A stretch of DNA of 64,000 nucleotides. Source: Rubrivivax sp. (GTDB lineage Bacteria; Pseudomonadota; Gammaproteobacteria; Burkholderiales; Burkholderiaceae_C). Location: NCBI GenBank assembly GCA_019635285.1, contig JAHBZS010000015.1, positions 1-64,000 on the forward strand, given 5' to 3'. Under the pieces are notes generated by a model. The model was not told the origin of the DNA, did no database searches, and saw nothing but the letters and a program-made list of their open reading frames with translations. Shown here one piece after another: positions 9,875 to 22,061 of the stretch. Both the position numbers and the translations under genes were made by a program. Position 1 is the stretch's first letter; every line of letters starts with the position of its first letter.

Positions 9875-10366
9875 CTAGCCGTGGCTGGACGCGCCGCCGG
9901 CCACCAGCTTGTGCAGCAGTTCACCGAGCATCGCGCGCTCGGCCGCCGACAGCGATGCCAGCAACCCGGCCTCCATGCCTTGCGAGACGCGCTGCGCGCG
10001 TCGCGCCAAGTCTTCCCCCTTGTCGGTGAGCAGCAGGTTCAGCGCGCGGCCGTCGGTGGTGCTGCGCTGGCGCTGCAGCAGCCCGCGCTCGGCCAGCCGG
10101 TCCACCAGCACGGTGACGTTGGGCGGCGGCACGCCCAGCGTCTGGGCCAGCTGCTTGGGCGTGGCACGCCCGTTGCTGAGCAGCAGCACCAGGATCGTGA
10201 ACTCCACCGGCCGCAGCTTGAAGGGCACGCCGATGTGGCGCTGGAAGACGCGGCGCGACGCCACTTCGGCCAGCGTCAGCCGGTAGCCCAGCAGGTGCTG
10301 CATCGCGCTCTGGTCGAGCAGCGCGCCGACGGCCGGCCGGTCGCGCGCGACGGTCTCGGCGGTCAT
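9875..10366 (-). CDS. MarR-family transcriptional regulator
   Basis: A 163-residue MarR protein with a central winged helix: the recognition region is about residues 70-95 (KQLAQTLGVPPPNVTVLVDR), followed by the wing with DGRALNLLLT. MarR repressors next to feruloyl/coumaroyl-CoA synthetase and crotonase genes usually sense the CoA thioester, as CouR of Rhodopseudomonas does; that analogy is inferred. The start at 10366 overlaps the stop of the solute-binding gene by 4 bp, so the regulator is at the distal end of the operon it probably controls. Confidence 0.88.
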   Translation of the reverse strand: MTAETVARDRPAVGALLDQSAMQHLLGYRLTLAEVASRRVFQRHIGVPFKLRPVEFTILVLLLSNGRATPKQLAQTLGVPPPNVTVLVDRLAERGLLQRQRSTTDGRALNLLLTDKGEDLARRAQRVSQGMEAGLLASLSAAERAMLGELLHKLVAGGASSHG

Positions 10367-11340
10367 GCCTCGGGCGTGAAGCCGACGCGCTTGACGATCG
10401 GCCCCCACGCGGCGTTTTCTTCCTTCACCGCCTTGGCCAGCTCGGCCGGCGAATTGACCGAGACGTCCAGGCCGAAAGCCGCCAGCCCGTCGGCCACCTC
10501 GGCGCCGGCCATCGCGGCGCGCAGCGCGGCCGAGGCGCGCTGCACCAGTTCGGCCGATGCCTTCGGCGGCAGGAACAGGCCGTACCACTCCATCATTTCC
10601 AGCGCCTTGAAGCCCTGTTCGGTGTAGGTCGGCGCGTTGGGCGCATAGCGCGAACGCACCGGGCCCGACGTGGCCAGCACGCGCAGCTTGCCGCTCTTCA
10701 GGTGCGGCAGGTAGTCGCCAATGGGCGAGCTGAAGGCCGTCACCTGGCCACCCAGCAGGTCCTGGATGCCCGGTGCCGAACCGCGGTAGGGCACGTGGCG
10801 CAGTTCGACGCCGCTTTCCTTGGACAGCAGCGCGCCTTCCATGTGCGGCGGCGAGCCGGCTCCGGGCGAGCCGTAGTTGGCCAGCGCCGGGTTGGCCTTG
10901 GCCCAGGCCAGGAAGTCCTTCAGGTTGTGCACCGAGTCGGGCACCGCCGGGCCGACGCCGAAGGCGAAGGCCACCTGCGCCAGCGTACCCACCGGCGTGA
11001 CGTCGTCGATGCCGTAGGCCAGCTTGGTGTACAGGTGCGGATACAGCGTGATCATCGCCGCCGGCGTGACCAGCAGCGTCGTGCCGTCCGGTGCGCTGCG
11101 CTTGAGCTCTTCGACGGCCAGGCGGCCGCCGGCGCCCGGCTTGTTCTCGACCAGCACGGTCTTGGCGTAGCTGCCGCGCATCTTGTCGGCCAGACGGCGT
11201 GCCACCGCATCGACGGTGCCGCCCGCCGGGAAGCCGACGAGGATGCGGGCGGTCTCGAGGCTTTGGGCGCGCAGCAGCCCGGGCAGCCCGTACAGGCCAA
11301 GGGCGCCGGCGGCGGCGAGGAACTGGCGGCGTTGGGTCAT
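10363..11340 (-). CDS. Bug-type tripartite tricarboxylate transporter solute-binding protein
   Basis: A periplasmic binding protein of the Bug/TctC family (about 325 residues). It has a twin-arginine-like export signal (TQRRQFLAAAGALGLYG) and conserved ILVGFPAGG and GSPGAGSPPHMEGAL-type segments. Burkholderiales carry dozens of such orphan receptors; no TctA/TctB membrane genes are nearby. Placement between the regulator and the CoA ligase suggests that it binds an aromatic acid. The start is set at ATG 11340, beginning with the export signal; ATG 11352, four codons upstream, is equally possible and neither has a strong ribosome-binding site. Confidence 0.87.
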   Translation of the reverse strand: MTQRRQFLAAAGALGLYGLPGLLRAQSLETARILVGFPAGGTVDAVARRLADKMRGSYAKTVLVENKPGAGGRLAVEELKRSAPDGTTLLVTPAAMITLYPHLYTKLAYGIDDVTPVGTLAQVAFAFGVGPAVPDSVHNLKDFLAWAKANPALANYGSPGAGSPPHMEGALLSKESGVELRHVPYRGSAPGIQDLLGGQVTAFSSPIGDYLPHLKSGKLRVLATSGPVRSRYAPNAPTYTEQGFKALEMMEWYGLFLPPKASAELVQRASAALRAAMAGAEVADGLAAFGLDVSVNSPAELAKAVKEENAAWGPIVKRVGFTPEA

Positions 11341-11379
11341 GGGGAGTCTCATGGTGGATGGAAGGGGAGGGAAGCAGGT

Positions 11380-13242
11380 TCAGCGCCGCGGCAGGATCAC
11401 CTGCGCGTCCGGCGCGTCGGCATACAGGCGCTCGACCAGGTCGGCACGGTGTTGCAGCACCGCGCGCTGGTTGATCGAGCCCTTGTCGGTGACTTCGCCG
11501 CGGTCCAGATGCGGCGGTTCCTCGAGCAGCAGCGCACGCGCCACGCGGTTGGCGCTGCCGGTGCCTTGGTGCCACAGCGCGTCGACCAGCGACTGGAAGA
11601 AGCCGCGCACCTCGGGGTGCGCCAGCACCTGCGCCGGCGTCGCCTGCTCGGGCAGGCCGAAGCGCCGGCGCGCGTCGTCGATGCGCGGGAAGATCAGCGC
11701 GCCGAGGTCGTCGCGGTTGAGCCCAGCAAGCACCACGTCCTGCACCAGCGGGTCGCCGGCCAGCACGATCTTCATGCGCAGCGGGCCGACGTTGACGAAG
11801 GTGCCGGTGGACAGCTTGAAGTCCTCGGCGATGCGGCCATCGAAGCGCAGGCCGCGCTGCGCGTCGGCGTCGTCGGCGTAGAGCACGGCGTCGCCGGTGC
11901 GGTAGTAGCCCTCTTCGTCGAAGGCGGCCGCGGTTTCGGCGGGCGCGCGCCAGTAGCCCGGCATGACGTTGGGGCCCTTGAAGCGCACTTCGAGCTTGCC
12001 GTCGGTGGGCACCAGCTTGACGGACACGCCGGGTGCCGGCAGGCCGATGTCGCCGCTCTTCACGTCGGTGCCCAGCGCGAAGGTGCAGGACGGCGCGGTC
12101 TCGGTCATGCCCAGGCCGGTGAAGATGCAGATGCGCTCGCCGATGGCCGCTTCGGCATGGCGGTCCAGGTGGTCCCACACCGCCTGGCTCAAGCCCGCGC
12201 CGGCGAACATGAAGGCCTTGACGCGCGAGAACAGCCTGTCGCGCAGGGCCGCGTCGCTGTCCATCGCCCGCGCGATCTCTTCGAAGCCCTTGGGCACGTT
12301 GAAGTAGATCGTCGGCGCGATCTCGCGCAGGTTGCGCAAGGTGGCGGCCATGCCCTTGGGCGTGGGCTTGCCGTCGTCGATGTACAAGGTGCCGCCGTTG
12401 TACAGCGCGATGCCGACGTTGTGGTTGCCGCCGAAGGTGTGGTTCCACGGCAGCCAGTCGACCAGCACCGGCGGCTCGTCGGCCAGGAAGGCGAAGCACT
12501 GGCGCAGCATCTGCTGGTTGGCGCAGAGCATGCGCTGCGTGTTGATCACGCCCTTGGGCTGCTTGGTCGAGCCGCTGGTGAACAGGAACTTGGCGATGGT
12601 GTCCGGCCCGACGTGGCCGTGCGCTTCCATCTCGGCATCGCCCGGCTCGGTGGCCAGCAGCGCATCGAAGCGGGCGATCTTGCGCCCCTGCAGCGCCGGC
12701 GTGTCGTCGCCGGTGGTGACCCAGATTTCGGTGTCCGCCGGCACCACGCTGGCGATGGCATTGCGGAAGGCATGGCCGTCGGCCGCGAACACCAGCCCCG
12801 GCGTCAAGGTGCCGAGGATCTGCTTCAGCTTGGCGAAGTCCTGAGACACGGTGGAATAGGCCACCGACACCGGCGTGTACGGCACGCCCACCCATTGCGC
12901 GGCCAGCGCCAGCGTGTAGTGTTCCAGGTCGTTGTCGGACAGGATGGCGATCGGCCGTTCGGCCGACAGGCCGCGTTCGGCAAGGGCCTGGCCGATGCGG
13001 CGCACGCGGTCGAGCATCTGCGCATAGGTGATGCGGCGCCAGGCGCCGTCGGCTCCGCGCTGCGCCACCTGCACGCGCTCGGGCGCATGGCGGGCCCATT
13101 CCTCCAGCCGGTCGGTCAGCCGGGCGGGGAAGGGCTGCAGGCGCTCGGTGGAGTGCAGGTGCTGCACGCCGGCGGCATCGACGCTGCGCAGCGCGGCCGT
13201 GCAGCCGCCGACCTTGACGTCACGGTACTTGGCAGTGGTCAT
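11380..13242 (-). CDS. Feruloyl-CoA-synthase-like acyl-CoA ligase
   Basis: A 620-residue ANL-superfamily ligase. The phosphate-binding loop FTSGSTKQPKG is at about 221-231, followed by TGLGMTETAP and YYRTGDA, the usual adenylation motifs; the C-terminal part diverges as in feruloyl-CoA synthases. Expected reaction: hydroxycinnamate + ATP + CoA to the CoA thioester, AMP and PPi. Start ATG 13242 is supported by GGAGA about 10 bp upstream. It lies between the crotonase and the binding protein. Other aryl-CoA ligases are possible, so the substrate is inferred. Confidence 0.85.
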   Translation of the reverse strand: MTTAKYRDVKVGGCTAALRSVDAAGVQHLHSTERLQPFPARLTDRLEEWARHAPERVQVAQRGADGAWRRITYAQMLDRVRRIGQALAERGLSAERPIAILSDNDLEHYTLALAAQWVGVPYTPVSVAYSTVSQDFAKLKQILGTLTPGLVFAADGHAFRNAIASVVPADTEIWVTTGDDTPALQGRKIARFDALLATEPGDAEMEAHGHVGPDTIAKFLFTSGSTKQPKGVINTQRMLCANQQMLRQCFAFLADEPPVLVDWLPWNHTFGGNHNVGIALYNGGTLYIDDGKPTPKGMAATLRNLREIAPTIYFNVPKGFEEIARAMDSDAALRDRLFSRVKAFMFAGAGLSQAVWDHLDRHAEAAIGERICIFTGLGMTETAPSCTFALGTDVKSGDIGLPAPGVSVKLVPTDGKLEVRFKGPNVMPGYWRAPAETAAAFDEEGYYRTGDAVLYADDADAQRGLRFDGRIAEDFKLSTGTFVNVGPLRMKIVLAGDPLVQDVVLAGLNRDDLGALIFPRIDDARRRFGLPEQATPAQVLAHPEVRGFFQSLVDALWHQGTGSANRVARALLLEEPPHLDRGEVTDKGSINQRAVLQHRADLVERLYADAPDAQVILPRR

Positions 13243-13303
13243 GGGCGAGTCTCCGTGTTTGGCGTGACGGCGCGCGGCGCCTGCGGGATGGCGGGACGGC
13301 AAC

Positions 13304-14098
13304 TCATTGCTTGGCCACCTTGGCGGCACGGCCGTCGAGGAACGCACGGATGCGCTGCTTGGCCGCCGGGTCGCCCTGCGCGATGGCTGCCACCAGCGAC
13401 TCGACGAACAGCCCTTCGGACGGCGCCAGCTCGGCGATGCGCGGCAGCGCCTGGATGACCGCGAAGTTGGACAGCGGCGCGTTGCCGCAGATCTTCTGCG
13501 CCAGCGCCATGCCCTTGGCCAGGCCTTCGCCTTCGCCGACCAGGTAGTTGGTCAGGCCGGCCTGCTGGCCTTCTTCGGCATCGAAGACGCGGCCGGTGAG
13601 CATCATGTCGGCCATGCGCGACGTGCCGATCAACCGCGGCAGCCGCATCGAGCCGCCGCCGCCAACGAAGATGCCGCGCTGGCCCTCGGGCAGGCCGTAA
13701 TAGGCATTGCGCTCGGCCACGCGCACGTGCGCCGCGGCGGCGATCTCCAGCCCGCCGCCGATCGTCGCGCCGTGCAGCACCGCCACCACCGGCACCGGCG
13801 CGAACTGCAGCTTGTCCAGCGTGGCGTGCCACATGCGCGAATGCAGCACGCCTTCGTACACCGTGCGCTCGGACAGCTCGGACAGGTCGAGCCCGGCGCA
13901 GAAGTGCTGGCCCTCGCCGCTGAGCACGATGCAGCCCACGTCGCTGCCCAGGCCGGTGAAGGCGCGGTCCAGCGCCAGCACCAGGCCGTCGTTGACGGCA
14001 TTGCGCTTGGCCGGCCGGTTGAGCCGCAGGTGCAGCACCGCGCCGTGACGTTCGGCGAGGATCAGGCCGGCATCGGAGGGGTCGGGGGGCAGGCTCAT
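13304..14098 (-). CDS. Enoyl-CoA hydratase/isomerase (crotonase) family protein
   Basis: A 264-residue crotonase with the two oxyanion-hole regions: HFCAGLDLSEL near residues 65-75 and HGATIGGGLE near 109-118. In coumarate/ferulate clusters this position is taken by a hydroxycinnamoyl-CoA hydratase(-lyase) or a beta-oxidation hydratase, which is the likely role here. It is the first gene of the leftward operon, directly downstream of an AT-rich divergent promoter region. Which of the two reaction types it performs cannot be told from the sequence alone. Confidence 0.85.
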   Translation of the reverse strand: MSLPPDPSDAGLILAERHGAVLHLRLNRPAKRNAVNDGLVLALDRAFTGLGSDVGCIVLSGEGQHFCAGLDLSELSERTVYEGVLHSRMWHATLDKLQFAPVPVVAVLHGATIGGGLEIAAAAHVRVAERNAYYGLPEGQRGIFVGGGGSMRLPRLIGTSRMADMMLTGRVFDAEEGQQAGLTNYLVGEGEGLAKGMALAQKICGNAPLSNFAVIQALPRIAELAPSEGLFVESLVAAIAQGDPAAKQRIRAFLDGRAAKVAKQ

Positions 14099-15195: not shown

Positions 15196-16500
15196 TCAGC
15201 GCGCGCGCTTGCGCGCCGGCCAGGGCTTCCAGCGCCGGTGCACCCACCACCATTGCTCGGGGCGGCGCACGATCAGCAGTTCCAGCGCGCGGTTGAACTC
15301 GCGCGTCGTCAGGCGGATGGCTTCGTTGGTGTCGGCATCTTCGACGGCCTGCACGGGCGCCTCGAAGCGCAGCACGTGGTGGCCATCGGGCTCACGCCAG
15401 CACGACGCCGGCACCACCGGGGCGCCGGTGCTCAGCGCGATCACGGCCAGGCTGCGGAAGGTGCCGGCCGGGTGGCCGAAGAACTCCACCCGCACGCCGT
15501 CCTTGCGCTGTGCATGCTGGTCGAAAGGGAAGACCACCAGGTCGCCGGCACCCAGCCGGTCGAGGATGGCGTCCAGCCCGCCGCGCTTGGGCAACACGCC
15601 GAAGCCCGCCTTGCGGAAGCGCCGCGTCACCAGCCGGTCCAGCCACTCGGGGCGGATCGGCCGGCGCACGAAATGGAAGCGGCCGTCGGCCTGCGGGAAG
15701 CTGGCCAGCCCGGCGCTGGTGGCCACCTCGAAGTTGCCGAAGTGGCCGGTCAGGATCAGCACGCCCTTGCCTTGCGCATGCGCGGCCAGCAGGTCCTCCA
15801 GCCCTTCGACGCGCACCATCGCCAGCTTGCGCGCGCGCGGCAGCCACGGGTACCACAGGAACTCCAGGAACAGCCGGCCCAGATGGCCGTAGTGCGCCTG
15901 CGCCAGCCGTGTGATCTCGGCGCGGTCGGCGCGTTCGCCGTAGACGCGGTTTAGGTTTTCCAGCACCACCTTGCGGCGCAGCGGCAGCAGGCGGTAGAGC
16001 AGCCGCGCGGCCCACGACGGCGCCGCCTGCGCCGGCCGCGCCAGCGCCATGGCCGTGGCCGCATGGCGGTCGTGCGTCAGCGACAGCTGGATGTCGGCAT
16101 AGCGGTTGTGCCCCAGCGCGCGTTGCGCGGCGGCGCTGAGCACCACCGTCGGCGCGCCGTAGCCATCGCGCGCCACCGAAAAATCCGCCGGCCCGAGGGC
16201 GCCCAGCGCGGCTTCGCGCGGGAACAGCTTGGTGCAGGCCTCCTTGGCGGCGAAGCGGCCGGCCAGGCTGGCGGCGCGGCCGGGGCCGTCGCCGGCATCG
16301 GCCAGCTCCTGCGGCGAGAAGAAAGCGCCCAGGTCCTGCGGCGCCGTCTCGGCCAGCAGCCGCTGGATGCGCGCGATCTCCACCGTGTCCACGCCGCAGC
16401 GCGCGGCGTCTTGCGCGGCAGGGGCGTCGTCAGGCCGCTCGAAGCCCCCCGGAGGAGGGGCCGGGGCCCCCGCCTGACCCAGAGGGCCCGGATCAGCCAC
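15196..16500 (-). CDS. Fusion: AcpS-like phosphopantetheinyl transferase + LpxL/HtrB-type acyltransferase
   Basis: A 434-residue two-domain protein. After a Pro/Gly-rich leader, residues 35-153 carry an AcpS/4'-phosphopantetheinyl transferase domain with Mg-binding D38 (CGVDTVEIARI) and FAAKEA (E87), then SLTHDRHAATAMA. Residues 160-434 are an LpxL/HtrB lysophospholipid acyltransferase with the catalytic HX4E motif H253-FGNF-E258. The first domain would activate the operon ACP, and the second would move the finished acyl chain to a lipid acceptor at the inner membrane. The start is taken as GTG 16500, overlapping the ketosynthase stop by 8 bp; the Pro/Gly linker is encoded just after. Last gene of the operon. 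Confidence 0.85.
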   Translation of the reverse strand: MADPGPLGQAGAPAPPPGGFERPDDAPAAQDAARCGVDTVEIARIQRLLAETAPQDLGAFFSPQELADAGDGPGRAASLAGRFAAKEACTKLFPREAALGALGPADFSVARDGYGAPTVVLSAAAQRALGHNRYADIQLSLTHDRHAATAMALARPAQAAPSWAARLLYRLLPLRRKVVLENLNRVYGERADRAEITRLAQAHYGHLGRLFLEFLWYPWLPRARKLAMVRVEGLEDLLAAHAQGKGVLILTGHFGNFEVATSAGLASFPQADGRFHFVRRPIRPEWLDRLVTRRFRKAGFGVLPKRGGLDAILDRLGAGDLVVFPFDQHAQRKDGVRVEFFGHPAGTFRSLAVIALSTGAPVVPASCWREPDGHHVLRFEAPVQAVEDADTNEAIRLTTREFNRALELLIVRRPEQWWWVHRRWKPWPARKRAR

Positions 16501-17773
16501 GCGCCACGCGCAGCAGGCAGGCGGCGTTGGTGCTGCCGAAGCCGCGCGACAGCACCAGCACGACGTCGCTGCGCGACTGTACCGGCGACGCGCTGGCCGG
16601 CAGCGCCGGCGCGTCGGCATCCTGCGCGCCCAGGCCGGCGATGCCGGGCACGCGGCCGGCGCGCAAGGCCGCCACCGCCAGCACCGCGTCGATCAGCCCG
16701 GCGGCGGCGAGCAGGTGGCCGAAGGCCCATTTGAAGGCGGTGACCGGCGGCATGTCGGCGCCGAAGACCTGCGCCAGCGCGCGAGCCTCGGAGCGGTCGG
16801 AATTGGGCGTGCCGTTGCCGTGGGCCACCACCAGGCCCACCTGCGCCGGCTGCAGCCCGGCGTTGGCCAGCGCGGCCTGGATGGCGCGCACCAGGCCATC
16901 GCCGTCGTCGCGCACCGGCAGCAGGCCCAGGGCTTCGCCGGCGCTGCCGAAGCCCAGGACCTCGCCCAGCACCGCGGCGCCGCGTTCCTGCGCCGCGGCT
17001 TCGGTCTCCAGCGTCAGCGCCGCGGCGCCTTCGCCCATGGCGCTGCCGTCGTGGCGCGCGTCGAAGGGGCGCAGCGCCTGCGCCGACAGCAGGCCCAGCT
17101 GGTGGTAGTACAGCAGGGTCTGCGGCTCGATCGGTGCGTCGTGCGCCACGACCACGGCACGAGTACATTCGCCGGCGCGCAGCGCGGCCGTGGCTTCGGC
17201 CAGCGCCAGCAGGCCGCTGATGCTGTGGTGCGTGATGCAGGCGTTGGGGCCCTTCAGTCCCTGGCGGATGCCAACGTGGCCGAGCACGTTGTTGGGCAGC
17301 GAGCGCAGCAGCCACAGCGGGTTGACGGTGGCCGCCAGCTCCTGGCCGAAGGCCTTCAGATCGCCTTTGGCCGCGGCGATCAGCGGCAGGTAGTCGTACT
17401 GGTTGCCGAAGGTGCCGCCGCCCGAGCCGACGATGACGCCGGTGGCGTCGGCGAAGCGCTCCTTGCCGGCGTCGTCCAGCGTCTCGCGCCAGGCGTTGAA
17501 TGCCGCCTGCTCGATCGCCTGGTCGGCCGCGTACAGCCCGAAGACATCGCCGCGGCGGATGTGCTTGAGCAGCTTGCGGTCGCCGGTCAGCTTGCCGGCG
17601 TTGTAGTCGGGCACCTCGGCGGCGATGCGTACCGGCCAGTCGCCGGCGTCCCATTGCGTGATCGGGCCGATGGCCGAGCGGCCCTCGTTCAGCGCGCCCA
17701 GGATCGCGTCGGGCGTGTGGCCGGCGCCGCAGATCGCGCCGCCGCCGGTGATGACGATGCGCGTCGTGCTCAC
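16493..17773 (-). CDS. Ketosynthase-like partner with Cys-to-Ser active site (chain-length-factor-like)
   Basis: A 426-residue beta-ketoacyl synthase fold. Aligned to FabF-type enzymes through LKGPN and the following helix, the nucleophilic Cys position is Ser184 (context ITHHSISG). The two histidine motifs are kept as AHGNGTPNSD and GHLLAAAG. A nearby Cys179 is five residues off register. Loss of the nucleophile beside a complete ketosynthase is the pattern of KS/chain-length-factor heterodimers in type II PKS and aryl polyene systems. The start is GTG 17773, overlapping the upstream KS stop as GTGA, which favours equimolar production. Decarboxylase-like activity is an alternative. Confidence 0.85.
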   Translation of the reverse strand: MSTTRIVITGGGAICGAGHTPDAILGALNEGRSAIGPITQWDAGDWPVRIAAEVPDYNAGKLTGDRKLLKHIRRGDVFGLYAADQAIEQAAFNAWRETLDDAGKERFADATGVIVGSGGGTFGNQYDYLPLIAAAKGDLKAFGQELAATVNPLWLLRSLPNNVLGHVGIRQGLKGPNACITHHSISGLLALAEATAALRAGECTRAVVVAHDAPIEPQTLLYYHQLGLLSAQALRPFDARHDGSAMGEGAAALTLETEAAAQERGAAVLGEVLGFGSAGEALGLLPVRDDGDGLVRAIQAALANAGLQPAQVGLVVAHGNGTPNSDRSEARALAQVFGADMPPVTAFKWAFGHLLAAAGLIDAVLAVAALRAGRVPGIAGLGAQDADAPALPASASPVQSRSDVVLVLSRGFGSTNAACLLRVARG

Positions 17774-19098
17774 GGCAATGCCTCCACGTCATCGGGGTGG
17801 CGGAAGGCCAGGCAGCTGTTCGAGCCGCCGAAGCCCAGCGAGTTGGACAGCGCGATGCGGATGCGCCGCGCACGTGGCGCATCGCGCACGATGTCGACGT
17901 CGCAGTCGGGGTCGAGTTCGCGCAGGTTGGCGTTGACCGGCAGCGTGCCGTGGTGGATGGCCAGCGCGCACACCGCGGCTTCCACCGCGCCGGCGGCCGC
18001 GATCAAATGGCCGGTGACGCTTTTCGTGGAGCTGACCGCCACCTGGCTGCGCGCGTCGCCCCACACCGCCTTGACGGCGGCGCACTCGCTGCGGTCGTTC
18101 ATCGGCGTCGAGGTGCCGTGGGCATTCAGGTAGTTGACGTCGGCAAGCTGCGCACCCGCGTCGGCGATGGCCTGGCGCATCGCCTGGATCGGCCCGTCGC
18201 CGGAGGGGTGCGAATCGGTGATGCGGTAGCTGGACAGCGAGTTGCCGTCGCCGGCCAGCTCGGCATAGATGCGCGCGCCGCGCTTCTTGGCGGCCTGCCA
18301 TTCCTCCAGCACGAGGAAGCCCGCGCCTTCGCCCAGCACGAAGCCGTTGCGCGTGGCATCGAAAGGGCGGCTGGCGCGCTCGGGCGCGTCGTTGTCCGGC
18401 GACACCGCATTGAGCAGGCAGAAGCCCGCCAGGCCCACCGGGTTGATCATCGAATCGAAGCCGCCGGCCAGCACGCAGTCGGCCTCGCCGCGGCGGATCA
18501 GCTTGAGCGCCGTGCCCACCGCCTGGCCGCCTGACGCACAAGCGGTGTGCACCGAGCTGGAATAGCCGCGGATGCCGAACACCCGCGACAGCAGCGCCGC
18601 ACCGGCGCCCGAATTGCTGCGGCAGAAGACCAGCGGGTCGGCGGCCGAGCCCTGCGCCGTCAGCAGCGCGGACGGCTGCAGTTCGCCGTCGGGCGCAGCG
18701 TCGCGCTGCACCTGGGCCAGCTCGTCGTAGGTCACGCCCATCATGCCGGTGCCGACCACGCAGCCCCAGCGCTCGGCGGTGGCCTCGGTGGGCCGCAGGC
18801 CGGCGTCGGCGAAGGCCTGCGCCGCCGCCACCAGCGCAAAACGGTGCGAGCGGTTGGCGAACTTCAGCAGCTTGCGATGTTCGCCCAGCGCCTGCAGCAC
18901 GGCGGCGTCCGGCAGGCCCTTGACCTCGGCGGCGATGCGCACCGGAAAGCCGCTGGCATCAAAACTGGCGATGCGTGCCGCGCCGCTGCGGCCGGCCAGC
19001 AACGCCGCCCAGGTGCTGGCCACGTCGTTGCCGACCGGCGTGACCAGGCCGAGGCCGGTGATGGCCACCCTGCGGCCTTGGTGGCGGCGTGAACTCAT
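17770..19098 (-). CDS. Beta-ketoacyl-ACP synthase (complete KS)
   Basis: A 442-residue FabF-like ketosynthase with the full triad: C187 in VHTACASGG, H327 in NAHGTSTP and H364 in TKSVTGHLIAAAG. It should condense malonyl-ACP with an acyl-ACP, releasing CO2. The start ATG 19098 overlaps the dehydratase stop (ATGA); a longer open frame upstream is a shadow of that gene. It is tightly coupled to the Ser184 partner downstream, so the two probably form a heterodimer that sets chain length. It is not the housekeeping fabF, which normally clusters with fabD/fabG/acpP. Confidence 0.9.
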   Translation of the reverse strand: MSSRRHQGRRVAITGLGLVTPVGNDVASTWAALLAGRSGAARIASFDASGFPVRIAAEVKGLPDAAVLQALGEHRKLLKFANRSHRFALVAAAQAFADAGLRPTEATAERWGCVVGTGMMGVTYDELAQVQRDAAPDGELQPSALLTAQGSAADPLVFCRSNSGAGAALLSRVFGIRGYSSSVHTACASGGQAVGTALKLIRRGEADCVLAGGFDSMINPVGLAGFCLLNAVSPDNDAPERASRPFDATRNGFVLGEGAGFLVLEEWQAAKKRGARIYAELAGDGNSLSSYRITDSHPSGDGPIQAMRQAIADAGAQLADVNYLNAHGTSTPMNDRSECAAVKAVWGDARSQVAVSSTKSVTGHLIAAAGAVEAAVCALAIHHGTLPVNANLRELDPDCDVDIVRDAPRARRIRIALSNSLGFGGSNSCLAFRHPDDVEALP

Positions 19099-19937
19099 GA
19101 AACGCTCCGCGGTGAGACTTCGATACGCGCCGTGGCCACGGTCTTGTCCTCGCTGCGCGCCGTGACCTTCAGGCGCGCGCGCAGCGCGTCGGCGTCCTGC
19201 AGCACGGCTTCGAGTGCCAGGCGCGTGCCGGGCGCGGTGAACGCACGGATCTTCACCTGGCCGACCTTGCGCGTGACCAGTGCGCCGGCGGCGGACAGCG
19301 GCGCCGCGGATTGCGCCAGCTGCAGCGACAGCGTGGCCAGCGCATCCATCAGCAGCGTGCCGGGAAACACCGGCCGCCGCGGAAAGTGGTCCTGAAAGTA
19401 GGGTGCCGCGGCGAGGTCCGGCACCTGCAGCCCCGCGCCAATGCGCTCGCCGGGCTGGAGTTGCAGGTCGTGGAACTCGGGCTCGGGCACGCCGCCGAAG
19501 CGTCCCGGCGCGGCGCCGGCGCCCAGCAGCGTGTGGAAGTCGGCGCGCACCGCTTCGGGCGCGTCGAACTCGTCCATCGGCAGCATCGGGCCGACGCTGT
19601 CCTGCAGCTCCATCGCCAGTGCGCCGTCGACGAAGGCCTTGCCGCTGTAGGCCACGGCCTCGGCGTCGCAGCGCTCGATGTCCGCCTGCAGCTGCAGCAG
19701 GCCGCCGGGGTGCGGCAGCGCGTGGTAGTGCACGGCGTTGGCCAGCCCGGCGACCGGCCGGTGCACGAAGTCCAGCTGCGCCATCGCCGACCACGCGGCC
19801 AACTGGCCCACCGCCTCGGCCATCAGCGAGGCCGGGAAGTGCGCACCCAGCGGCACCGCAAAGTGGCCCTCGACACGGCCGCCTTCGCGCCGCGTGATGC
19901 GGTCGACGAAGGAGAAGCTGCGAAAGCGCCCGCTCAT
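19095..19937 (-). CDS. Double-hotdog 3-hydroxyacyl-ACP dehydratase
   Basis: A 280-residue protein with two hotdog-like halves. The C-terminal half carries a FabA/FabZ-like HFPRRPVFPG segment starting at H184, followed by D198 in LLMDAL as the probable acid. The N-terminal half has a shortened relic, AHFPASLMAEAVGQL (H33, E41). Likely reaction: dehydration of 3-hydroxyacyl-ACP to enoyl-ACP. The start ATG 19937 has GGAGGGG six bases upstream. This start region is tandemly duplicated upstream, and a 21-codon reading frame ends exactly on it (TGA within ATGA). Confidence 0.82.
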   Translation of the reverse strand: MSGRFRSFSFVDRITRREGGRVEGHFAVPLGAHFPASLMAEAVGQLAAWSAMAQLDFVHRPVAGLANAVHYHALPHPGGLLQLQADIERCDAEAVAYSGKAFVDGALAMELQDSVGPMLPMDEFDAPEAVRADFHTLLGAGAAPGRFGGVPEPEFHDLQLQPGERIGAGLQVPDLAAAPYFQDHFPRRPVFPGTLLMDALATLSLQLAQSAAPLSAAGALVTRKVGQVKIRAFTAPGTRLALEAVLQDADALRARLKVTARSEDKTVATARIEVSPRSVS

Positions 19938-19999
19938 GGGGCGCCCCTCCGCGCAGCGCGCTCCGGCATGAGCGCTTGGGAGCGGCCCTGCGCGCTCAT
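19934..19999 (-). CDS. Mini-ORF 2 in leader of dehydratase (21 codons)
   Basis: It begins at ATG 19999, is preceded by GGAGGGG at 6 bp, and its TGA overlaps the dehydratase ATG (ATGA). The peptide begins MSAQGRSQAL and is basic. Its existence follows from the 62-bp repeat period (not a multiple of 3). It may serve only to carry ribosomes to the dehydratase start; product function is not expected. Confidence 0.3.
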   Translation of the reverse strand: MSAQGRSQALMPERAARRGAP

Positions 20000-20061
20000 G
20001 GAGCGCCCCTCCGCGCAGCACGCTCCGGGATGAGCGCTTGGGAGCGGCCCTGCGCGCTCAT
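19996..20061 (-). CDS. Mini-ORF 1 in leader of dehydratase (21 codons)
   Basis: It begins at ATG 20061, just after the ACP stop, and ends with a TGA overlapping the start of mini-ORF 2 (ATGA). Nearly identical to mini-ORF 2, with Ile instead of Met at position 11. Its own ribosome-binding site is weak, so initiation would depend on ribosomes finishing the ACP gene 14 bp upstream. Confidence 0.25.
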   Translation of the reverse strand: MSAQGRSQALIPERAARRGAP

Positions 20062-20075
20062 GCAGCGACGCTGCG

Positions 20076-20498
20076 TCAGCCCTGGGCCGCGCGCTGCGCG
20101 CGGATCACGACCTTGCAGAAGGTCTCGGTGGTGAACAGGCGCGGCACGTCGGAGGCCTTCAGCGGCGTCTTGATGCGCTCGGCCGGCACCTCGCTCAGGA
20201 AGGAGCGCAGCCGCGCCAGCCCGGCTTCGGTGACGATGCCCTTGGATTCGAATTCCGATTCGGGCAGCGGGCCGCGTGCGTCCTCGACGATCTTGCCGCG
20301 CGGGATCTTCACGCCGAAGCCCTTTTCGAGGCGGAACACCAGGTCCAGGAAGTCGATGGACTCGGCGTCCAGGTCTTCGATCAGCGAGGCCTTCGGCGTC
20401 ACTTCGTCGAGGTCGCAGCCCAGCGCGTCGGAAACGATCTGCGCCACCTTGGGGAATACCGCGTCGATCTCTGCCTGGCTGATTGCCTGTTCTGACAT
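20076..20498 (-). CDS. Long acyl carrier protein
   Basis: A 140-residue protein whose first ~80 residues are a type II acyl carrier protein, with S47 in LDAESIDFLDL as the phosphopantetheine site. The remaining ~60 residues (including RIKTPLKASDVPRLFTTETF) form an extension not found in AcpP. The start is ATG 20498 with GGAG eight bases upstream; GTG 20507 is too close to that site. Modification is probably done by the AcpS-like domain encoded at the end of this operon. The extension could dock the dedicated ketosynthase pair or acyltransferase. Confidence 0.88.
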   Translation of the reverse strand: MSEQAISQAEIDAVFPKVAQIVSDALGCDLDEVTPKASLIEDLDAESIDFLDLVFRLEKGFGVKIPRGKIVEDARGPLPESEFESKGIVTEAGLARLRSFLSEVPAERIKTPLKASDVPRLFTTETFCKVVIRAQRAAQG

Positions 20499-20511
20499 GT
20501 TGCTCACTCCG

Positions 20512-21270
20512 TTATTCCATCTTGAAGCCGCCGTCGACGTGCAGCACCTGGCCGGTGATGTAGTCGGCGAAACGCGAGGCGAGGAACCACACCGCGTGGG
20601 CCACGTCCTGGGCCTGTCCGTAGCGGCGCAGCAGGATGCGCGCCTTGATCTGGTCGTCGGCGAGGTCGCGCACCTGCTGCGACATCTCGGTCTCGATCAC
20701 GCCGGGGGCCACGCAGTTTACCGTGATCTTGCGCGAGGCCAGCTCCACCGCCATGGCCCGCGTGAAGGCGTTGATGGCGCCCTTGCTGGCCGCGTAGTTG
20801 GACTGGCCGCGGCCGCCCTTGTCGCCCGCCACCGAGCTCAGGTTGATGATGCGGCCCGAGCGCTTGGAGATCATGTGCCGCGCCACCGCGCGGGTGACGT
20901 TGAAGACGCCACCGACATTGGTGTCCAGCACCGCCCGGATGTCCTCGTCCTCGAGCATGCCGAGCAGGTTGTCGCGCACGATGCCGGCGTTGTTGACCAG
21001 CACGTCGATGCGGCCGCGGCTGTCGACGATTCGCTCCACCGCGTCGCCCACGGCAGCGGCGTCGGTCACGTCCGCCTGCATCGCCTCGGCCTTGCCGCCG
21101 GCGGCCTGCACCGCGGCGACCACCTCTTGCGCGGCCGCGGCGTTGTCGCGGTAGAAGAAGACCACGTCCATGCCGTCCTGCGCGAACAGCTCGACGATGG
21201 CCCGGCCGATGCCGCGGCTGCCGCCGCTGACCAGCGCGACCTTGCCGGCCAATCCCGAGTCGATGTTCAT
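20512..21270 (-). CDS. 3-oxoacyl-ACP reductase (FabG-like SDR)
   Basis: A 252-residue classical SDR with SGGSRGIG near residue 16, NNAG near 93, and the YxxxK catalytic pair in SNYAASKGA. The C-terminal GQVLHVDGGFKM is typical of FabG. It should reduce 3-oxoacyl-ACP with NADPH. The start at 21270 overlaps the upstream enoyl-reductase-like stop (ATGA), and the ACP start follows 13 bp after its stop. Context makes it the ketoreductase of the dedicated FAS-like operon. Confidence 0.9.
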   Translation of the reverse strand: MNIDSGLAGKVALVSGGSRGIGRAIVELFAQDGMDVVFFYRDNAAAAQEVVAAVQAAGGKAEAMQADVTDAAAVGDAVERIVDSRGRIDVLVNNAGIVRDNLLGMLEDEDIRAVLDTNVGGVFNVTRAVARHMISKRSGRIINLSSVAGDKGGRGQSNYAASKGAINAFTRAMAVELASRKITVNCVAPGVIETEMSQQVRDLADDQIKARILLRRYGQAQDVAHAVWFLASRFADYITGQVLHVDGGFKME

Positions 21271-22061
21271 CCGGAGATCGCGAAGCCGCCGTCGACGAAC
21301 AGCGTGTGGCCGTTGACCATGTGGGCCTCGGGCAGGCACAGCAGGTACACCGCTCCGGCCACGTCTTCGGGCGTCAGCACCGGGCCGGCCGGCGTGCGCG
21401 CCTTGAAGGATTCGACCAGCTGCTCGCGGTTGGGGAAGTAGCTCAGCGCATCGGTTTCGACCACGCCGGCGCTGACCGCGTTGACGCGGATGCCGCTGGG
21501 GCCGAGTTCCTGCGCCAGCGAGCGCACCAGCGATTCCAGCGCGGCTTTCGAGGCACCGATGAAGGCGTAGTTGGGCATCGCGCGCACCGAGCCCAGGCTG
21601 GACATGGCGATGATGCGGCCGCCCGGCCCCATCAACGGCGCGGCGCGCTGCGCCAGCAGGTTCAGCGCAAAGGCGTTGGTCTCCATGCACCAGCGCCAGT
21701 GCTTCAGCGTCATGTCCATCGCCGGCTTGAGCACGCCGCTGGCGGCGTTGCTGATGACGATGTCCAGGTGGTCGAAGTGCTTGCGCAGCTCGGTGAACAG
21801 CTCGTCCACGCTGTCCGGCTGGCTGACGCTGGCCTTCAGGGCCACGGCACGGCGGCCGAGCGCGCGGAACTGCTCACACAGCGCCTCGGCCTCTTCGTGG
21901 CTGTTGTAGTAGTTGACGACGAGGTCCGCGCCCGACTGCGCCAGCTTGGTGGCGATGGCGCGGCCGATGCCGCGTGCGGCGCCGGTGACGAGGGCCACCT
22001 TGCCGGCCAGCGGCAGCGCGGCAACGGAGGCAGAAGCGGAAGGCGCAGCAGGCTGGTTCAT
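21267..22061 (-). CDS. FabL/FabI-like enoyl-ACP reductase (SDR, Y-x6-K)
   Basis: A 264-residue SDR with TGAARGIG at the N-terminus and the Y-x6-K spacing (MPNYAFIGASKAALES) that separates FabI/FabL enoyl reductases from FabG-type ketoreductases, where the spacing is Y-x3-K. The resemblance to Bacillus FabL around that motif is strong. Expected reaction: NAD(P)H-dependent reduction of enoyl-ACP. It is the first gene of the leftward FAS-like operon; start ATG 22061 begins a low-complexity leader, and an in-frame ATG at 22100 is less likely. A separate FabI is encoded at 53.1-53.9 kb. Confidence 0.78.
   Translation of the reverse strand: MNQPAAPSASASVAALPLAGKVALVTGAARGIGRAIATKLAQSGADLVVNYYNSHEEAEALCEQFRALGRRAVALKASVSQPDSVDELFTELRKHFDHLDIVISNAASGVLKPAMDMTLKHWRWCMETNAFALNLLAQRAAPLMGPGGRIIAMSSLGSVRAMPNYAFIGASKAALESLVRSLAQELGPSGIRVNAVSAGVVETDALSYFPNREQLVESFKARTPAGPVLTPEDVAGAVYLLCLPEAHMVNGHTLFVDGGFAISG

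Follow-up and report, generated by a model that had tools for sequence, protein, structure and literature searches.

Seven closely packed genes on the minus strand of a 64,000-nucleotide stretch of Rubrivivax sp. DNA (the start of contig JAHBZS010000015.1, called the window below; GC 0.701) probably encode a dedicated type II fatty acid synthase (FAS) that elongates an acyl chain, probably a very long one, on its own acyl carrier protein (ACP) and delivers it to lipid A. The genes (15196-22061) specify an enoyl reductase (ER), a ketoreductase (KR), the ACP, a dehydratase (DH), a ketosynthase (KS), a KS partner and a fusion of phosphopantetheinyl transferase (PPTase) with acyltransferase. We put the probability of this reading, which draws on sequence comparison and on analogy with known systems, at roughly 0.6. 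The product is most likely a very-long-chain (about C26-C30) secondary acyl group, by analogy with an unfused Legionella-like operon and with rhizobial acpXL-lpxXL; we infer the KS-partner heterodimer, the chain length, the starter and the acceptor. The original prediction, made from the letters of the window, was that the dedicated ACP serves to build a special acyl chain, which then goes to lipid A or a different membrane lipid; this is the reading that the comparisons back best.

The operon

The features of the interval are as follows.

21267..22061, minus strand: enoyl-ACP reductase of the FabL type, 264 aa (NF005975 equivalog)
20512..21270, minus strand: 3-ketoacyl-ACP reductase, a FabG-like short-chain dehydrogenase/reductase (SDR) (TIGR01830, below cut-off)
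20076..20507, minus strand: dedicated ACP, 143 aa, Ser50 site (PF00550, 16-row alignment)
19938..20075, no strand: gap between ACP and DH, containing a 62-bp tandem repeat (2.2 copies, 94%)
19095..19937, minus strand: dehydratase, double hotdog (PF07977 on the C half only)
17770..19098, minus strand: KS (ketoacyl-synt family, NF005589, catalytic residues)
16493..17773, minus strand: KS partner, chain-length-factor (CLF)-like (PF00109/PF02801, GTG start)
15196..16500, minus strand: AcpS-type PPTase (N-terminal) and LpxL-type acyltransferase (C-terminal) in one open reading frame (ORF), 434 aa (PF01648, PF03279)

All seven coupled FAS- or polyketide synthase (PKS)-like genes of the original prediction are found where it had placed them, with every family except the KR above its curated cut-off. 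Its list of functions is likewise complete, with the refinement that PPTase and acyltransferase are one fused ORF. Overlaps of 4-8 bases join ER to KR, DH to KS, KS to partner and, if the assumed GTG start at 16500 holds (the 434 aa are counted from there), partner to fusion. The KR start codon lies inside the end of the ER gene and overlaps its stop as ATGA, KR and ACP are 4 bp apart, and ACP and DH are separated by 138 bp. The 62-bp repeat occupies this gap, the operon's only long one, directly before the DH start. A sigma-70 promoter scan gave 0 matches vs 0.1 in shuffles, and two terminator-like sites were found, below the shuffles' mean of 3.5.

The fused PPTase-acyltransferase

The last gene joins a PPTase domain (ACPS PF01648, 40.7 bits, cut-off 25) to an acyltransferase domain (Lip_A_acyltrans PF03279, 138.9 bits, cut-off 22.3), and the two share a single ORF in 21/21 fused-type loci where both could be read. 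The PPTase part resembles the C-terminus of fungal FAS alpha in a PDB search. It keeps an Asp in 21/21 rows and a Glu in 20/21, which we take to be metal-site residues. The fused PPTase at L140:13442-14959 (G1234) has Arg at the conserved Glu position, possibly through an alignment slip or in a dead domain.

In the acyltransferase the His and Glu of HFGNFE, presumably the HX4E form of the HX4D/E dyad of the LpxL/LpxM/PatA superfamily, are kept in 25/25 rows. A 44-row acyltransferase (LPX) tree, built without L055 (177 aa) and L081 (no LPX match), places 20 fused and four unfused operon enzymes in one 100/100 clade. The three rhizobial LpxXL rows have a clade to themselves inside a weaker 92/94 group shared with the operon enzymes; outside that group are the LpxL of E. 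coli and the side-by-side pair of the window genome. The open-licence PMC matches listed contain no literature on a fused PPTase-LpxL protein or on such an operon in the phyla named below.

The chain-building enzymes

The ketoacyl-synt domain is above cut-off in both KS and partner. The KS scores 425.1 bits against NF005589 (cut-off 387) and 438.7 against TIGR03150, under 493.75. In E. coli FabF numbering, which applies to both proteins, its Cys163, His303, Lys335, His340 and Phe400 are kept in 16/16 rows and 9/9 further rows (three "KS" rows of the KS tree, L043, L045 and L060, are CLF ORFs of loci without a KS and were excluded from residue counts). In the window partner the catalytic Cys is replaced by Ser and both catalytic His and Lys are retained. 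Position 163 is Ser (13), Thr (1) or Cys (5) in the first 19 rows and Ala (5) or Gly (3) in eight further ones, with both His and the Lys present in 26/26 rows long enough to show them. Loss of the nucleophile with His and Lys kept typifies non-condensing ketosynthases that decarboxylate malonyl-ACP. Because the partner has this combination, it may make the starter.

The FabL-like ER of the original prediction is borne out by the FabL equivalog NF005975 (351.6 bits, cut-off 328), which suggests full reduction; the ER contains YAFIGASK, a Tyr-x6-Lys motif that we take to be characteristic of such reductases. The KR is a clear SDR, at 279.1 bits under the cut-off of 297.75 for the FabG equivalog TIGR01830. 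The ACP (PP-binding PF00550, 37.1 bits, cut-off 20.8) has a conserved insertion of ~45 residues ahead of its last helix in the 16-row alignment. The best of five AlphaFold2 (AF2) models of it reached pLDDT 80.5, the other four at most 58.1. Foldseek with this model found nothing at E <= 0.001; the weaker matches, which include the specialized ACP of R. palustris (3lmo/2kw2), amount to a general likeness to ACPs.

The FabA-like family PF07977 covers only the C half of the DH (46.5 bits, cut-off 23), and the AF2 model (pLDDT 91.4) is a double hotdog. A PDB search placed hotdog enzymes on top, many of them thioesterases. Two residues are the same in 16/16 rows, His184 of the C half and Glu41 of the N half, whereas the acid of the C-half helix is poorly kept (Asp in 14/25 rows); the L139 DH was read over its N half only, which accounts for an odd residue in the further rows. 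Because the first pair is invariant while the helix acid varies, we read His184 and Glu41 as one predicted FabZ-like composite site.

Distribution of the operon

The gene order that the original prediction had proposed to look for elsewhere was found, with all eight domains on one strand and PPTase and acyltransferase in one ORF, in 16 loci including the window (in one of them, L055, the contig stops within the acyltransferase). A further seven loci, truncated where their contigs end, conform in the part that can be read. L039, being equal in length to L044, was taken as the same contig, and L010, L011, L040 and L041 lie inside L057-L060; each was counted once. The carriers are Burkholderiales and other proteobacteria, Methylomirabilota (NC10) and Verrucomicrobiota. 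Chance ORFs can be ruled out, because one order recurs in 16 complete loci whose neighbours mostly differ and whose hosts span three phyla or more.

With the KS partner as query, true relatives (60-64% identity) occur in 2/299 other genomes of the order (G010, G271), 3/249 other genomes of the family (again 60-64%) and 0/2 same-genus genomes drawn; the order search at its loose cut-off matched 289/300 genomes, nearly all through ordinary FabF-like proteins (E 1e-30 to 1e-46). Six exact peptides scanned against 84,980 species genomes led to 15 loci, of which 14 are true, all titled as metagenome-assembled genomes (MAGs): seven from Burkholderiales or other proteobacteria, three from Methylomirabilota (NC10) and four from Verrucomicrobiota. 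The fifteenth (Streptomyces, 34%) was judged an unrelated PKS and left out. An ACP alignment search matched 1/387 Verrucomicrobiota genomes (the search centre itself), 12/95 genomes of the NC10 phylum set (7 of these at E < 1e-38) and 9/369 genomes of the class, the window's own included. Because every named carrier of the fused type is a MAG, a binning error could account for a placement here or there; this is unlikely for the distribution as a whole, because each of three phyla has several loci.

The gene set seems, on sequence grounds, to move between distant bacteria as one block. The NC10 locus L049 groups with Verrucomicrobiota in the KS (98/97), CLF (99/99) and LPX (98/95) trees, which suggests block movement, and the operon behaves as a mobile, self-contained unit because flanks mostly differ while order and fusion are conserved. 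In the flank comparison genes were unshared between groups except for a major facilitator superfamily (MFS) gene common to L137, L138 and L142, a few single pairs, and two to three tandem condensation-like genes upstream in L051, L053 and L055.

The condensation-like genes (L051:1-3402, L053:1628-5132 and L055:322-2807) belong to two Verrucomicrobiota and one betaproteobacterium. One protein each in L053 and L055 matches the Condensation family PF00668, and one L053 neighbour of this kind has no PDB match at E <= 0.01. Between them and the operon, L053:5128-5757 is a phospholipid/isoprenylcysteine methyltransferase-like gene, and L051:4778-5581, directly upstream of the operon, encodes a type VI secretion system (T6SS) Hcp-family protein. 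Next to the operon in the window (10363-14098) lie genes for a TctC receptor, an AMP-ligase near PRK12582 (below cut-off) and a crotonase, which look like aromatic or acyl-CoA catabolism; ligase and crotonase also adjoin the operon in the close relative L042.

Judged by sequence, the ACP family is wider than the operon. L135, L148, L149, L150, L151 and L152 are FAS/PKS-like clusters whose ACP aligns with the operon ACP family, mostly including the insertion; within the stretches fetched they have no LPX match. At L144:9627-10037 an ACP of the family has no other operon genes nearby, distant KR-like matches excepted.

Unfused relatives in Legionella-like genomes

Among the class matches, L140 has the full fused set. 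L137 and L138 have an ER plus ACP-DH-KS-partner-LPX, L139 has ACP-DH-KS-partner-LPX, and L141 has ER-KR-ACP-DH-KS-partner-LPX, all unfused, with a PPTase domain in 0/4 of these loci; the contigs of L142 and L143 end before any LPX. The L137-L139 genomes (2.3-3.4 Mb) belong to one family (f140), and the stretches have 37-47% GC. In L137 and L138, rpoA, ssb and the MFS gene precede the operon set; the L139 stretch as fetched does not show them.

From such features we infer that the three genomes (G1260, G1395 and G1498) belong to Legionellaceae. The L. pneumophila tags are lpg0354 for rpoA (PMC4549902), lpg0356 for ssb (PMC5928044), lpg0359 for an ACP and lpg0361/lpg0362 for ketosynthases (PMC13200437). 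The L137/L138 gene order is compatible with these tags, and going by order the unfused operon would correspond to lpg0359-0363. Lipid A of L. pneumophila carries 27-oxooctacosanoic and heptacosanedioic acids, that is C27-C28 chains (PMC6927915, citing Moll 1992 and Zahringer 1995). The unfused-operon genomes hold no rhizobial-type AcpXL above cut-off, the single sub-threshold match being the operon ACP itself. This makes the operon the obvious candidate for Legionella-like C27-C28 chains. Others may already have come across the Legionella copy, since a five-gene cluster is reported in all bacteria with very-long-chain fatty acid (VLCFA) lipid A (PMC5613085, citing Ardissone 2011).

Window and L137 share 55% identity in ACP, 59% in KS, 43% in the partner and 43% in LPX. 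The Legionella-like operon resembles that of the window in the order of the same five core genes, the 100/100 acyltransferase clade, the ACP insertion and a DH of double-hotdog size. It differs in having no KR in L137-L139 and no PPTase domain, and in L137 the ER is set apart. By these sequence comparisons the two operons are of one kind; that of the window has, in addition, a KR, as does L141, and the fused PPTase.

Rhizobial, aryl polyene and fungal systems

The rhizobial cluster acpXL-fabZXL-fabF2XL-fabF1XL-adhXL-lpxXL, like the window, has ACP, DH and two ketosynthases, one Cys-less, in a row (PMC11901934, PMC5613085), and in 3/4 clusters fetched an LpxL-type acyltransferase lies behind them. 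The operon thus has the rhizobial-type combination of ACP, DH, two KS and LpxL-type acyltransferase in one cluster. However, the Cys-less ketosynthase comes first in rhizobia and second in the window, and FabF2XL has lost Cys, one His and Lys whereas the window partner has lost only the Cys. Furthermore, a KR was found in just 2/4 rhizobial clusters, Rhizobium and Agrobacterium have an alcohol dehydrogenase (ADH) and not FabL (PMC11901934, PMC5613085), the rhizobial DH has ~155-178 aa in three loci with an ORF of its own as opposed to a double hotdog, and no PPTase fusion was seen in the four clusters.

Going by its sequence, then, the operon would work like rhizobial acpXL-lpxXL, yet it lies outside that family. 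The window ACP scores 52.2 bits against the AcpXL profile (PRK06508/NF005079, cut-off 83), and AcpXL is above cut-off in 0/26 genomes with the operon or its relatives (1/1 control positive). The operon KS and CLF clades (100/100 and 90/96) stand apart from FabF1XL and FabF2XL (each 100/100) in a tree with some long branches, and the window KS is 37% identical to FabF1XL. Membership of the XL family was rejected on these two grounds, the AcpXL score and the ketosynthase clades.

The aryl polyene cluster of E. coli CFT073 likewise has KS, CLF, KR, DH, ACP and acyltransferase. Unlike the operon, it lacks an annotated enoyl reductase and has an MMPL exporter, LolA, a thioesterase and an AMP-ligase. 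When its 17 proteins were compared with 29 loci (E <= 1e-8; flank lengths differ), only ketosynthases and KR matched; those unmatched include MMPL, LolA, thioesterase, AMP-ligase, glycosyltransferase, acyltransferase, CLF and ACPs, and resorcinol genes were not queried. This agrees with the original prediction, which had noted that thioesterase and MMPL exporter are missing beside the operon and would have been abandoned had aryl polyene or resorcinol genes always lain just outside homologous clusters. Aryl polyene identity was rejected for want of partner genes in the 29 loci and for the separate KS/CLF clades. Fungal type I FAS also carries its own ACP-activating domain, but there the PPTase is fused to the synthase and in the window to the acyltransferase.

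Mechanism and alternative explanations

In the mechanism we propose, the AcpS domain of the fusion would charge the operon's own ACP, and malonyl groups would come from housekeeping FabD, which the operon does not encode. Chain elongation would fall to a heterodimer of the KS and its Cys-less partner, and the partner, having kept the residues for decarboxylating malonyl-ACP, may supply the starter as well. Full reduction in each round would be the work of KR, DH and the FabL-type ER. Finally the LpxL domain, on the same polypeptide as the ACP-activating domain, would move the finished chain from ACP to lipid A.

A bolder version is possible though doubtful: a mobile, self-sufficient synthase giving unrelated, so far uncultured Gram-negatives membrane-spanning lipid A acyl chains, with an AcpS-LpxL hub and an acetyl starter made by the partner. 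AcpS works as a trimer, and three acyltransferase domains might accordingly surround the ACP-activating sites. The fusion would bind the same ACP at the start and end of the cycle, and a partner turning malonyl-ACP into acetyl starter would leave the line in need of only malonyl-ACP and NAD(P)H.

Several observations weigh against a synthase for very long lipid A chains. The best PDB match of the acyltransferase is a phosphatidylinositol mannoside (PIM) acyltransferase (E 4e-11), ahead of a lipid A lauroyl acyltransferase (5kn7, E 1e-8). The group joining operon enzymes to rhizobial LpxXL is weak (92/94) and also contains the host enzymes L087 and L104. Position 108 of the KS is Met, not a small residue, and its FabF pocket positions give no clear chain-length signal. 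Partner position 163 is Cys in 5/27 rows, so the partner is not a pure chain-length factor everywhere. As to the Legionella link, the family assignment is our own, two unrelated genes separate ER and ACP in L137, and in the article texts available no paper was found tying lpg0359-0363 to long chains. Lastly, the window genome holds two other Lip_A_acyltrans (LpxL-family) genes, side by side, and the operon enzyme is therefore not needed for basic lipid A. That genome also has one other PPTase of the AcpS family and a FabF-type gene with KR and ACP on another contig, so the operon comes on top of a normal apparatus for making fatty acids and lipid A.

Perhaps the private synthase is the same and the acceptor is not lipid A, a PatA-like activity placing the chain on some other membrane lipid, be it a phospholipid, an aminolipid or a glycolipid. 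The PIM match fits this idea, PF03279 is not specific to lipid A (its family controls include Corynebacterium), and the condensation-like proteins of L051, L053 and L055 could act on another lipid. However, NCBIfam ranks lipid A lauroyl acyltransferases on top, below cut-off (PRK08419 119.7, PRK06553 111.9), ahead of PIM acyltransferase (83.7). LpxC is present in 14/17 host genomes, the misses being one 78% complete genome and two MAGs without a stated completeness, and 4/17 hosts (G735, G741, G743 and G744) show only operon-type Lip_A_acyltrans genes, although these are MAGs and gaps may explain some. We consider this explanation unlikely.

Less probable still is that lipid A receives a chain of ordinary length and special structure (branched, hydroxylated or with an odd starter), the partner setting the starter and not the length. 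The decarboxylase-like pattern of the partner, with its His and Lys constant and position 163 Ser, Thr, Ala, Gly or Cys, would suit such a role, as would Met108 of the KS; the unfused relatives in Legionella-ordered genomes, given the C27-C28 chains of Legionella lipid A, point the other way. A type II PKS for a pigment or secondary metabolite of the aryl polyene, flexirubin or resorcinol kind is very improbable: apart from the shared gene types it has in its favour a KR score of 251.5 bits to FlxB (cut-off 340), against which stand the full reduction to which FabL points, the lack of aryl polyene partner genes in the 29 loci, and KS and CLF clades apart from ApeO/ApeR/ApeC, whose long branches are unsurely placed.

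Implications

Very long lipid A chains have been tied to rhizobia, Brucella, Agrobacterium and Legionella, and to host and stress survival (PMC11901934, PMC5613085). If the lipid A reading is true, the trait would also occur in Burkholderiales, NC10 and Verrucomicrobiota. It would seem to have two or more origins, each from different ketosynthases, and to travel as a single cassette. The fusion would confine an ACP to a single pathway in a way that is new, and the comparison singles out candidate genes for the C27-C28 acyl chains of Legionella.

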